Source: Acidimicrobiaceae bacterium (GTDB taxonomy: Bacteria > Actinomycetota > Acidimicrobiia > Acidimicrobiales > Poriferisodalaceae). Taken from it: DNA of 51,779 bases. Shown here piece after piece: positions 5,881-10,603 of this stretch. The notes beneath the pieces were generated by a model, which ran no database searches, was not told the DNA's origin, and saw only the letters and a program-made list of their open reading frames with translations. Positions within the stretch are counted from its first letter, which is position 1, and each line of letters opens with the position of its first letter. The position numbers and the translations under genes are program-made. Location of the stretch: positions 284,322 to 336,100 of the forward strand of contig PAPO01000024.1 of NCBI GenBank assembly GCA_002708935.1, in the 5' to 3' direction.

Positions 5881-6055
5881 CAAATTTCCTCCCAAGTCTG
5901 GAGGGCATCTTAGAGTTCGTCGCGTGCCTCCGCGTTGACGCGTCTAACTACGTTGCATAACCGAACTGATAGAGCCGGGACACCTTCTCGTGGCTCTAGC
6001 GTTAAATCCGTCCTTTGACTGTGTTGCGAGGCTCATCGCGGTCTACGATTTGGGC

Positions 6056-6715
6056 ATGGCACCTGAAAGCTCCACCCTCAAGAAGGGTGCGCGCGTTGTT
6101 GTTATTGCAGACCTACCAGGAGTCGCTGCAGGCACAGCTGGAAGAGTTGGTCGCTCGATAGGAATTAAGACGGTCAGGTATCGAGTTCAGTTCGAAAACG
6201 GTGTCAATACTTTGTCTGTCGCCGAAAGCAAACTGGTGTCCCCGGCAGCTTGGGAATTCATCAAAGAAAATCGTGAATCGGTAACGGAGACAGAGAATGG
6301 CGGCCCGCCAGCTGTAGCCGCCGCCGTTCCAGTCGCCGCTAGCCAATCCGTGGTCGATCCCGCACCACAGCCTCCCGCAGTGAAGGAAGCCCCTGCAGCG
6401 AAAAGCACACCTGCGCCCCAGCCCGAACCCTCCTCAGGGGCACCTGCTGATGATCCGCGGTTGGCAGCCCTCACCGCAAAGTCGCGTGAAGCTCGCAAAG
6501 ATGCAGGCATTGACGTAGATGCCGAAGTTGCGTCCAACGAAGCTGCCACTGAAGCCGAAGCAACCAGCCAAGAAGAACCTGTTGCCGAAACTCCGGCAGC
6601 GGCCACTGCCTCGGAGCCCGCATCGTCCTCGGAGCCCTCAGTGGAACTGCCCGATGGCTACTTCCCCACAGATAACCGAATTGCTGACCTGTTAGCGTCC
6701 ATCAAAAAGGGTTAG
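6056..6715 (+). CDS. Conserved hypothetical protein with KOW/SH3-like N-terminal domain
   Basis: About 219 residues in three parts. Residues 1-70 form a small beta-rich, KOW-like module (KKGARVVVIADLPGV, then GRVGRSIGIKTVRYRVQFENG). Residues 80-195 are a low-complexity Ala/Pro/Glu/Ser linker. The last 20 or so residues are again ordered-looking and charged (GYFPTDNRIADLLASIKKG). No signal peptide or membrane segment is visible. I do not recognise a function; KOW-like folds often bind nucleic acid or protein. The ATG at 6056 is chosen because the domain begins right after it, although a GTG at 5990 is also in frame. The stop overlaps the 3' end of the convergent DMFase-like gene by four bases. 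Confidence 0.7.
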   Translation: MAPESSTLKKGARVVVIADLPGVAAGTAGRVGRSIGIKTVRYRVQFENGVNTLSVAESKLVSPAAWEFIKENRESVTETENGGPPAVAAAVPVAASQSVVDPAPQPPAVKEAPAAKSTPAPQPEPSSGAPADDPRLAALTAKSREARKDAGIDVDAEVASNEAATEAEATSQEEPVAETPAAATASEPASSSEPSVELPDGYFPTDNRIADLLASIKKG

Positions 6716-8889
6716 CTGCCGATTTGAGTCGGGTTCTCAAACGGAGCTGGGTCCACAAACCGCTCCAAAACATTTCGGGTCATCTGCGCGATGTCGTTGT
6801 CGTAGCCGTTACGGGCTAACGCACCGAACCAAGAAATTGAACCAACACTGAACACGGCGCCACCTGCAGGAGTTTCGTAGAAGACGATGTCCGCACGGAC
6901 GAAAGGGTCTGGCGTAGGGAAGGCGACCGTACCCTCGAACTCTTCTTTAGTTCGCAACATGTCAGGACCGAAATCGGAAGCCGTGGCAACTATGACTGCA
7001 TGGCCCGGAGAACCGAGCTTTTGGTCATACCTGTCTACTTCTTGGCCAGCGGCTCCTCCGCCAAGCCCGGATGTTCCAATCAACTCATCATCTATCCCAT
7101 TGAGAATCCAAGACGCTCGTGAGTCATACACGCCTGGATCCACTCGATAAAAGGTGGCCTTCTCAAATCCTTGGGCTGCGAATCCGATACCCACGAGCTG
7201 ATTAGGAGCACGGCCGTTCCGGCGCCACAGGCCGCCGTACTCGCCGCCCCACGCGTGATAGTTCTCGCCATCACCAGTCTGCCAATTCCGAACCCCGTCT
7301 TCGGCGCGACGCAACTCGATAGCCCCAGGCCATGAATCGCTGAAAGAGACCCGCCAGTAGAAGCCATTTCCGCCGAGATACATAAGACGGCCACCACTGC
7401 GTTGCCACTGATCTAGGGCATCTAACATCGCAGTCGACCAATACTCAGGATGGGACCCGGTGACGATCACCCGGTAAGGAGCAAGTGCGGAGTAGCCATC
7501 GTTGTGAAGGTCCTCATCACTAACGATGTCGTGTCCTACCTCTGTTTGAAGTAAGAACGCGTGGATGTCTGTATCAGGTGTGAAATTCCAACCATCAGCT
7601 CCTGGTCGGAGTTGAAGTACAGGCCGACGCCTCGAACTGAACATCACACCACTGCCATCAGGATGCTTTTCGTAATGACTTAATCCAACCTCCCGATGAT
7701 CGACTAAATACTGATGTTCTGGGCGAAGATTCGAACGCGCGCCAACGAAGTCGGCCCCCTCGATCAACATCCGATGGTTGGCATAAGCCATATAGGTACA
7801 CGTTGGGACCAAGAGGGCGACATCGGCGCACTCGGTTCCTATGGCCGGCCTCACAAAGAAGGGAACTCGGTCAATGCCCAAATCAGATTCAAATCGGAAG
7901 CAGTAGATGCCACTGTCGAGACTTTCGGGAAGACGAATGTTGTGGCTGGGATCCCAGCCAGCGTCGTACAAATCATCATGGTGGAAATGAATGGCGTTCC
8001 ACTCAGCGGGATCATCACTCCAACGTTGGTGTCGACCAGTCCATGTTGGGCCTGTGACGCCCCGAGCCGGTAATTGATTGAGCTCGAGATCGATACCGCC
8101 GACTAGTGGTTGAACTACTGAACCATCCATGCTGTCGTCAAACGCCCATTCGTATGTCCGGTCGTCAGTAACAACCGTAGGCCCAGCTATGCGACCGTCC
8201 CATCTGCTGTTACCTGGCCCCGCCGCCAAACGGAACAGAAGATCGGTAAATGAGAGTGCGGGAATCTCGAATTTTAAGGTGTCTTCGCCCACCTGGAGGA
8301 GATCTCGCCCTGGCGAGAACGTTTCCGGAGACATAATATTTATCTCGATTGAGTTGATATCTAGGTCAACATCGAGTTGCAGGAAATACCAGCGATGTCG
8401 TTCAAGTGGTCGTTCGCGTATCCGCTCTTCGGACTCACCGAACCTGCCCATTAAGACATCACCGCGATTTGAAACCTCGATGATGTCGTTACCAGAGCTC
8501 AGGGACACCAAAACACCATCGCGTTTCAGAAGTGTTGGTTGGAACCAAAGGCTCACTTGCAAGGAAGTAACGGGACCTGGCAGTCGCGCCTCAGCATACG
8601 ATCCGGGAATAACCGGTTGCTCGACGAGGTCGACAGCGAAAGCGTCGATGTCCCCTACTCGCTCTTCGGCGAATCCCGGGCCACTCCGGGTTGGATCACC
8701 ACAGTCCAGACGCACGACCTCCAAGACACCAGAAGTTGGCGTGTGGCTCGACCCGAACCACTGGATCTCTTCGCCAGCGCGTAGTGACCACGGCTCGCAG
8801 TAGCCGGTTATGAGTTTTTGGAGAGCGGGTTCTTTGCCTGTGGGCATTTGATGAAGATCGAAGAGGTGACTGAGTATCTCTCGGGTCAC
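6712..8889 (-). CDS. N,N-dimethylformamidase beta-subunit-like protein
   Basis: Protein of 725 residues resembling the large subunit of dimethylformamidase, which hydrolyses formamides to an amine and formate. Residues of about 100-245 look like a concanavalin/LamG-type beta sandwich. The C-terminal half has the family hallmarks TCTYMAYANHRM (363-374), GLSHYEKHPDGSG (402-414) and VTGSHPEYW (476-484). The published Paracoccus enzyme has mononuclear iron held by two Tyr and one Glu. By spacing I infer Tyr366 (or Tyr369), Tyr406 and Glu482 here. It starts with GTG overlapping the rhodanese stop (GTGA). No gene for the usual small alpha subunit is adjacent, so the true substrate may differ. Confidence 0.82.
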   Translation of the reverse strand: MTREILSHLFDLHQMPTGKEPALQKLITGYCEPWSLRAGEEIQWFGSSHTPTSGVLEVVRLDCGDPTRSGPGFAEERVGDIDAFAVDLVEQPVIPGSYAEARLPGPVTSLQVSLWFQPTLLKRDGVLVSLSSGNDIIEVSNRGDVLMGRFGESEERIRERPLERHRWYFLQLDVDLDINSIEINIMSPETFSPGRDLLQVGEDTLKFEIPALSFTDLLFRLAAGPGNSRWDGRIAGPTVVTDDRTYEWAFDDSMDGSVVQPLVGGIDLELNQLPARGVTGPTWTGRHQRWSDDPAEWNAIHFHHDDLYDAGWDPSHNIRLPESLDSGIYCFRFESDLGIDRVPFFVRPAIGTECADVALLVPTCTYMAYANHRMLIEGADFVGARSNLRPEHQYLVDHREVGLSHYEKHPDGSGVMFSSRRRPVLQLRPGADGWNFTPDTDIHAFLLQTEVGHDIVSDEDLHNDGYSALAPYRVIVTGSHPEYWSTAMLDALDQWQRSGGRLMYLGGNGFYWRVSFSDSWPGAIELRRAEDGVRNWQTGDGENYHAWGGEYGGLWRRNGRAPNQLVGIGFAAQGFEKATFYRVDPGVYDSRASWILNGIDDELIGTSGLGGGAAGQEVDRYDQKLGSPGHAVIVATASDFGPDMLRTKEEFEGTVAFPTPDPFVRADIVFYETPAGGAVFSVGSISWFGALARNGYDNDIAQMTRNVLERFVDPAPFENPTQIGS

Positions 8890-9299
8890 CTTACGCGGTT
8901 AGCTTTCCATTCTTCATATGATTCGATTGGCATATCGTCGGCCTGCCATCCACCAAAGCCTGTCTCGATGTGACTGATTTTCTCCATGCCCATGTCTTTC
9001 AGGGTCTTGGCAGAAAGCGCCGACCTCATGCCGCCTGCGCAGCACAGAACGAACTCCCTGTCTTCGCCAAATATTTCTTTTGTGTACGGGGAATCTGGCG
9101 ACACCCAGAATTCCAGCATCCCTCGGGGGGCGTGCATGGCTCCAGGTATGGCTCCATCGCGTTGCATTTCGCGTACATCGCGAATATCAACAATTAGAGC
9201 GCCTTCCTCAGTAGCCCTCCTGGATGCTTCTTCCGGTGAGATGTTGTCTATTTCTGACTTTGCGGCTTCGACCATTTCCTTTACTGAGGCAATCCCCAT
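8886..9299 (-). CDS. Rhodanese-like domain protein
   Basis: Single-domain rhodanese of 137 residues. The active-site loop is CCAGGMRS with Cys in the expected position, and other family features are ALIVDIRDVREM and the C-terminal GFGGWQADDMP. Such proteins carry sulfane sulfur as a Cys persulfide. The ATG at 9299 has a GGGAGAG Shine-Dalgarno element on the minus strand (9305-9311). Its stop overlaps the GTG of the DMFase-like gene, so the two products are made in a coupled way. Its size is close to that of the DMFase alpha subunit, yet it is clearly a rhodanese by sequence. Confidence 0.9.
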   Translation of the reverse strand: MGIASVKEMVEAAKSEIDNISPEEASRRATEEGALIVDIRDVREMQRDGAIPGAMHAPRGMLEFWVSPDSPYTKEIFGEDREFVLCCAGGMRSALSAKTLKDMGMEKISHIETGFGGWQADDMPIESYEEWKANRVR

Positions 9300-9370: not shown

Positions 9371-10603
9371 CTAGGTGTCATTTCGCTCTGGATATCCGTC
9401 AACCTGAGAAAGCAATATTCGACGCTGTTCTAATTCTGATATTGCTGACTCCGACATCCCGAGAAGCTCCGATAAAACCTCGCCATTGTGTTCCCCGAGG
9501 AAAGGTGGCAGCGGTTCGTTATCAGGAATTTCGACCGAACTGAATTTGGCGGGTAGCCCAGTAACCGTAATTTCCCCAAAAGCTGGGTCGACTACTTGGC
9601 GGACCATGCCCCTTTCGGTGAAATGCGGATGCACCATGGCCTCTTCGGGGCTCAGGACCGGAGCAGCCGGAATACGCTGCTCCTCAAGATAAGACAGGAG
9701 GTCAGCATCGCTGTTAAATCCCTGCATCCACGCTTCAACCAAACTGAGTAGCTCTGCCGCATTTGTTATTCGTGCCTCGGCGGTAGCGAAGCGACTGTCA
9801 CTGGCTAAAGAACTGTCACCCATCGCTTCGCACAACCTTTGCCACTGGGGTGCGAGGACCTGCAACACGACCCATCCTTCAGGCCCTTTGTAGGTACCCG
9901 AAGGCACCACAATGCTGAACTGTCGACCCGAGCGTTCTTGGCTCCAATCGCCACCGGTTGCACTATGACCTTGGACCGCTATCGAATGCATCGCGAAAAG
10001 GGGATCCACCAACGTCACTTCTACGTACTGCCCCTCGCCTGTTCGTTCTCGATGGAACAAGGCATGACCAATGGCACCAAAAAGCATTTGACCCGCGGCG
10101 CAATCTGATATCGGCGAACCAGTGAACTGAGGTGCACCATCGGCTTCGCCCGTGAGATGCATCATCCCGGAGAGCGCTTGGCCCATCAAATCGAATCCCT
10201 GAAGGTGAGCGAGAGGACCCGACTTACCGAAGGCCGATATGGACGCCATTACTAAATCGGGCTTTAGGGCCTGCAGGTGGTCCCATCCCAAACCGCGGCG
10301 TTCCAAAACGCCCGGACCGAAGTTTTCGACTACCACGTGACACTGGGCAGCTAGATTTCGTGCCAGATCACAGGCATCCTCCGATCCAAGATCGAGGCAA
10401 ATAGATCGCTTACCGCGATTCTGTTGGCTGTAGTAGGAGGACGACCCACTGTCCGACACAAACGGAAGTGTGCGACTGGGATCTCCATGTGGCCCATATT
10501 CAACTTTTATTACATCAGCGCCCAGTTCAGCAAGCATCCGAGTCGCGCTTGGTCCGGACAAATATTGGGTGAAATCAAGGACGCGGACACCTTCTAAGAG
10601 CAT
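9371..10603 (-). CDS. CaiB/BaiF family (class III) CoA-transferase
   Basis: Protein of 410 residues with the class III CoA-transferase pattern. It has GVRVLDFTQYLSGPSATRMLAELGADVIKVE at the N-terminus, the NRGKRSICLDL segment, VVENFGPGVLERRGLG, and RTGEGQYVEVTLVD (about residues 187-200). Asp200 occupies one of the two positions where family members carry the acidic nucleophile. It should move CoA between carboxylic acids without ATP, or act as a racemase. It is co-directional with the rhodanese and DMFase-like genes 71 bases downstream and may share their operon. It is divergent from the lone HyuA gene. Confidence 0.92.
   Translation of the reverse strand: MLLEGVRVLDFTQYLSGPSATRMLAELGADVIKVEYGPHGDPSRTLPFVSDSGSSSYYSQQNRGKRSICLDLGSEDACDLARNLAAQCHVVVENFGPGVLERRGLGWDHLQALKPDLVMASISAFGKSGPLAHLQGFDLMGQALSGMMHLTGEADGAPQFTGSPISDCAAGQMLFGAIGHALFHRERTGEGQYVEVTLVDPLFAMHSIAVQGHSATGGDWSQERSGRQFSIVVPSGTYKGPEGWVVLQVLAPQWQRLCEAMGDSSLASDSRFATAEARITNAAELLSLVEAWMQGFNSDADLLSYLEEQRIPAAPVLSPEEAMVHPHFTERGMVRQVVDPAFGEITVTGLPAKFSSVEIPDNEPLPPFLGEHNGEVLSELLGMSESAISELEQRRILLSQVDGYPERNDT

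Follow-up and report, generated by a model that had tools for sequence, protein, structure and literature searches.

Has a rhodanese taken the place of a missing subunit in an enzyme of the N,N-dimethylformamidase (DMFase) type? The question is raised by a 51,779-nucleotide (nt) stretch of DNA from an Acidimicrobiaceae bacterium of the Poriferisodalaceae (assembly GCA_002708935.1, contig PAPO01000024.1, positions 284,322 to 336,100), here called the window, in which a rhodanese gene overlaps the start of a gene for a protein resembling the large subunit of DMFase. The relatives of the two proteins show that the rhodanese replaced no missing subunit, so that the two genes resemble a local operon and not a new kind of enzyme. 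With a probability of roughly two in three, we favour a reading in which the large protein is an Fe(III) amidase or acylase that works independently of the small α-subunit and is encoded in a lineage-specific operon together with a rhodanese that is catalytically intact and acts independently, rather than one in which α was swapped for the rhodanese. The original prediction placed the two genes, their strand and their GTGA overlap exactly:

8886-9299, minus strand: open reading frame (ORF) of a single-domain, RPA3614-like rhodanese, 137 amino acids (Pfam PF00581, 6e-16; 2hhg RPA3614, 2.3e-38)
6712-8889, minus strand: ORF of the protein like the DMFase large subunit, 725 amino acids, GTG start, α-less, with an Ig-like domain, a pentraxin-like domain and DMFase domain III (DMFA2_C)
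8886-8889, minus strand: GTGA stop/start overlap (TGA of the rhodanese, GTG of the DMFase-like gene)

The large protein matches the Pfam family PF20254 (DMFA2_C) at 1.2e-86 with residues 277-698, which cover positions 3-374 of the 374 in the profile. A sequence search gave 8i5a as its best match (5.8e-119), with 6lvb at 8.7e-89. An AlphaFold2 model based on 45 aligned relatives reached a mean predicted local distance difference test score (pLDDT) of 91 and a predicted template modelling score of 0.90, and a Foldseek search with this model placed 8huy first (TM 0.86, 34% identity) and the Paracoccus DMFase 6lvb next (TM 0.88). In excerpts of PMC7686228, the iron ligands of parDMFase are given as Y399, Y440 and E521 and its catalytic residue as H519, and N547 is also named. 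We transferred these residues to the window by motif via the large subunit of Paracoccus aminophilus, not on the parDMFase sequence itself, with the following result:

7792-7794, minus strand: codon of Y366, putative iron ligand (parDMFase Y399)
7672-7674, minus strand: codon of Y406, putative iron ligand (parDMFase Y440)
7444-7452, minus strand: codons of H480-P481-E482, with the catalytic His (parDMFase H519) and the putative iron ligand Glu (E521)
7366-7368, minus strand: codon of N508 (parDMFase N547)

Y406, H480, E482 and N508 are invariant in the 45 aligned rows, and Y366 is present in at least 90% of them. The Tyr/Tyr/Glu set that had been proposed as iron ligands is thus retained, and homology gives good support to the view that the large protein belongs to the DMFase/acylase family, has its catalytic site intact and would bind iron and hydrolyse an amide. 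Y366, Y406 and E482 would hold a mononuclear Fe(III) that, aided by H480, would polarise the amide carbonyl and activate water, and the large protein may hydrolyse an N-acyl or N-formyl compound by itself, like the acylase. The suggestion that the metal centre is served by a sulfur carrier found no support, and we reject it because the ligands of the known site, in excerpts of PMC7686228, are all oxygen. In-frame TGA codons in some DMFase-like matches were also considered and dismissed; in the alignments, the sole stop lies immediately before the aligned end of the match at L009 and is read as terminal.

No α gene is adjacent to the pair in the window, as the original prediction had it, and a whole-genome model search found no α homologue in any of the 39 genomes of the window family; the same model recovered α in all three genomes known to contain it. 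For this comparison, α homologues were collected beside DMFase-like genes on plasmids and elsewhere. In two further genomes with α-less loci, one has α elsewhere (that of L150) and the other has none (that of L153). A census of the best 80 of 277 confirmed DMFase-like relatives in the named genome collection contained 10 loci with the rhodanese, 30 with α nearby, 40 with neither and none with both; among the 40, three have a contig end at or close to their start (L146, L174 and L212), one of which (L146) belongs to the rhodanese-linked lineage. One of the 30 α loci carries α downstream of the large gene (L208). In another (L197, 4542-7217), a single open frame contains both the α match and the large subunit and may be a natural α-β fusion.

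In a phylogeny of 84 rows, which leaves out the fragments L146 and L212 and includes L204 and L217 with a full reading frame, the 11 rhodanese-linked rows form one clade, with a support of 99 in the Shimodaira-Hasegawa-like approximate likelihood ratio test (SH-aLRT). This clade is nested in a clade of 22 rows (SH-aLRT 100), in which the remaining 11 rows have neither α nor rhodanese. The window protein falls in the α-less half of the tree, which does not include 8HUY itself. Because α and the rhodanese are both missing from the nearest relatives, the branch of the window probably had no α by the time the rhodanese arrived beside the large gene; most simply, α would already have been lost there or would never have been present. 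A comparison of the rhodanese with α indicates that the two are unrelated (probability of homology 0.1%). The original prediction had placed the rhodanese in the position of the small subunit, and the layout does mimic that of dmfA1-dmfA2. The further step, from position to replacement, fails, as neither gene is found in the nearest α-less relatives and the rhodanese has no homology to α; we thus rejected the rhodanese as a substitute for α.

The slot upstream of α-less relatives is filled by a carbonic anhydrase-like gene (L150, L151), TauD (L149, L165, L167), an amidohydrolase (L157, L168, L172), a GDSL protein (L175) and others. The fold of DMFase, for which one enzyme of two subunits and one acylase structure are known, is accordingly widespread without α and next to varied upstream partners, which argues against equating gene position with subunit identity. 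All six PDB entries that contain α are DMFase, and 8huy, 8i59 and 8i5a are not among them. The carbonic anhydrase-like gene is of the β-carbonic anhydrase family (PF00484) and abuts or overlaps an α-less DMFase-like gene in two metagenome-assembled genomes of the Binatia (L150, 4414-4995; L151, 4413-4994).

The CCAGGMR loop of the rhodanese is intact, as had been predicted, and the protein contains both the rhodanese domain and a catalytic Cys in a C-x4-R loop:

9039-9041, minus strand: codon of Cys87, probable persulfide cysteine in the loop C-AGGM-R

Among 78 distinct relatives (matches at 1e-20 only, identical stretches counted once), the C87 column contains Cys in 67, TGA in 11 and nothing else. 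Because the second Cys of the loop aligns with Cys or TGA in all 78, C87 and not C86 was taken as the catalytic residue. From its sequence, the rhodanese is probably a competent sulfurtransferase, which would transfer sulfur via a Cys87 persulfide on its own account.

The TGA codons form an observation of their own. Counted among the 49 distinct close relatives of the window rhodanese (at least 55% identity), 11 have TGA at the catalytic Cys and appear to be selenocysteine (Sec) rhodaneses (L039-L043, L230-L234 and L253, relatives of window 8886-9299). A hairpin around GGACAAGTTTGTC, shortly after the TGA, is near-invariant in the 10 loci that were folded and resembles a bacterial Sec insertion sequence. 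A tRNA-Sec scored above the Rfam cut-off in 13 of the 16 genomes checked, among them the window genome, and below it in G212, G467 and G486, which are three of the genomes with a Sec-rhodanese.

How firmly is the pair held together? With matches counted at 1e-20, the DMFase-like gene is present in 31 of the 39 genomes of the window family, of which 29 carry the rhodanese immediately upstream of it (28 loci and G023). The two unpaired genomes are G035, where a contig end cuts the locus, and G006, where the genes are unlinked, with a 51% identical rhodanese on another contig than the DMFase-like gene. The GTGA overlap is exact in 14 of the 28 loci, the distance is zero in 4, and the 10 loci of genus g6 have a gap of 27-53 nt, as measured from start sites that were called by rule. 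Both genes would be read from one transcript, and the GTGA overlap probably couples their translation. However, the genes from modABC to the amidase and the monooxygenase also keep their order around the pair, and as the whole surrounding block is syntenic, adjacency alone is weak evidence. Somewhat stronger evidence comes from g6, in which the pair stays together despite the loss of the gene directly upstream of it:

9371-10603, minus strand: CoA-transferase family III (CaiB-like), context gene, missing in genus g6

Outside the family, the conserved adjacency that the original prediction called for was not found. In the sister family f18, a close rhodanese occurs in 11 of 39 genomes and a DMFase-like gene in 9 of 39, and the six genomes with both have them on different contigs; no adjacency was seen in the fetched flanks, some of which are short in these fragmented assemblies. 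Three genomes of the window family (G003, G004 and G005) keep a rhodanese (62-66%) and have no DMFase-like match at 1e-20. In one f18 genome (G174), a 69% rhodanese lies upstream of modCBA-like genes, which is the arrangement of the window family, but its neighbour is a CoA transferase and not the DMFase-like gene; no DMFase-like match was found in this genome. Together with the rhodaneses of G003-G005, this context implies that the rhodanese locus probably predates the pairing. The G174 locus (L082) also raises the possibility that the neighbourhood of rhodanese and molybdate transporter, present in a second family, is older than the link to the DMFase-like gene. Given these distributions, we infer that the two proteins are independent of each other and form no stable complex, and the pairing would have a single origin, in a branch of a marine-type, uncultured family of the Acidimicrobiales, inside a syntenic block.

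Several points weigh against this reading. The tree is rooted at its midpoint, its true root is unknown, and its deepest split has a support of only 83. Contigs of f18 end soon downstream of the rhodanese, at 121 nt in L224 and at 407 nt in L233, and because these assemblies are fragmented, the counts of non-adjacency are weakened. The pairing persists in nearly all family genomes with the large gene (29/31), and g6 has retained it despite losing the CoA transferase. No other protein of the block is as well conserved as the rhodanese; in L141-L144, for example, the figures are 90-92% for the rhodanese and 71-75% for the DMFase-like protein. Such persistence and conservation could mean a real functional tie. 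Finally, the tightly linked pairs are distinguished by a lineage-specific helix at the N-terminus of the large protein.

If there is such a tie, it could be a joint pathway, an explanation that we consider unlikely, in which the amidase and then the rhodanese act on one compound, for example with the amidase setting free a fragment that contains sulfur and yields thiocyanate/cyanide or sulfite, for the rhodanese to process, and in which both are expressed from one transcript for that reason. The linkage is tight and lineage-wide, the catalytic Cys position is intact in all relatives, and in some records RPA3614-like rhodaneses have sulfur-related neighbours, namely a hypotaurine-pyruvate aminotransferase and a cystathionine β-lyase in Paracoccus seriniphilus and, in Cereibacter and Paracoccus, a molybdopterin S/N-oxide reductase. 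However, the contexts of the rhodanese outside the window family are varied (8 records and Paracoccus seriniphilus), the two genes are apart in f18, and the rhodanese occurs without the amidase. The genes around the pair encode a CoA transferase, an enoyl-CoA hydratase, an amidase, a hydantoinase-like protein, a monooxygenase and a molybdate transporter; they fit no single known pathway and gave no substrate, and no sulfur-specific neighbour was found in the window block. Nothing that we found points to the sulfur-containing substrate that had been suggested. Gene lists are rough, as ORFs in these high-GC loci were called crudely, by length or by a composition score, and the key counts come from tblastn and profile hidden Markov model matches. 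A fast-changing acidic protein without a Pfam match, encoded at window 5990-6715, is kept in 17 of 21 clustered loci; its gene is on the opposite strand from the DMFase-like gene, and the two share 4 nt at their ends.

Alternatively, the rhodanese could be a physical partner that binds the large protein at helix 2-14 or at the old α site, with a stabilising or regulatory effect; this seems improbable. The helix is the only hint of a contact with the rhodanese:

8848-8886, minus strand: N-terminal extension, residues 2-14, predicted helix, motif-like (I/L)LxxxFxLHQ

The extension, with the exact motif or close to it, is present in all 18 family loci in which the genes overlap or abut and in none of the 10 loosely spaced loci of g6, nor was it seen in the sisters examined. 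The pairwise differences in codons 2-14 fall mostly at third positions (1238 of 2109). The extension is modelled as a helix at very low confidence (block pLDDT 41) that is not packed on its own chain. A bound partner would also fit the dmfA1-dmfA2 precedent, where the same 4-nt overlap joins the genes and α is required for the activity of parDMFase (excerpts of PMC7686228). However, as ten linked g6 loci lack the extension, it characterises a single subclade, and its presence is confounded with descent; the rhodanese is also unrelated to α, and the α-less relatives manage without either. More specifically, an α-less iron amidase of the DMFase fold could have recruited the rhodanese as a docking partner via this newly evolved helix (ILxQxFxLHQ), physically tying the transfer of sulfur onto or off Cys87 to amide hydrolysis; we give this version little credence, and if the helix does bind the rhodanese, it would represent a new way to tie these two reactions. 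That the adjacency is passive synteny without any functional meaning is very improbable, since, even though the neighbours from modABC through the amidase and monooxygenase all keep their order, the co-oriented genes overlap or abut in 18 of 28 loci and the pair survives the loss of the CoA transferase.

An α-independent amidase or acylase in an operon with an independent rhodanese thus remains our preferred reading, and each protein can be placed next to a known system; in the literature searched, no paper contained both "rhodanese" and "dimethylformamidase". The rhodanese resembles the RPA3614-type single-domain protein 2HHG in its loop and in an RGMLEFW..SPY stretch, although this entry is annotated as hypothetical and offers no function for it. 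Its close relatives with TGA at the catalytic Cys correspond to the UxxG rhodanese-like selenoproteins, already listed in the available parts of PMC13188914 and PMC9312934, whereas the window protein has Cys. With the Paracoccus DMFase (DmfA1/DmfA2; 6LVB), the large protein shares the three-domain architecture and, by sequence comparison, the residues of the iron site, and in Paracoccus aminophilus the small upstream gene overlaps the large one by 4 nt, as in the window pair. However, that enzyme contains α, and its large subunit by itself is inactive according to excerpts of PMC7686228, whereas the window family has no α. Closest is the N-acetyl-(R)-β-phenylalanine acylase (8HUY, 8I59 and 8I5A). 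Although only about a third of its residues are identical to those of the window protein, and it is known here from PDB titles alone, it is the best match in both sequence and fold, and as its entries contain no α chain, an α-less member of the family already has a solved structure.

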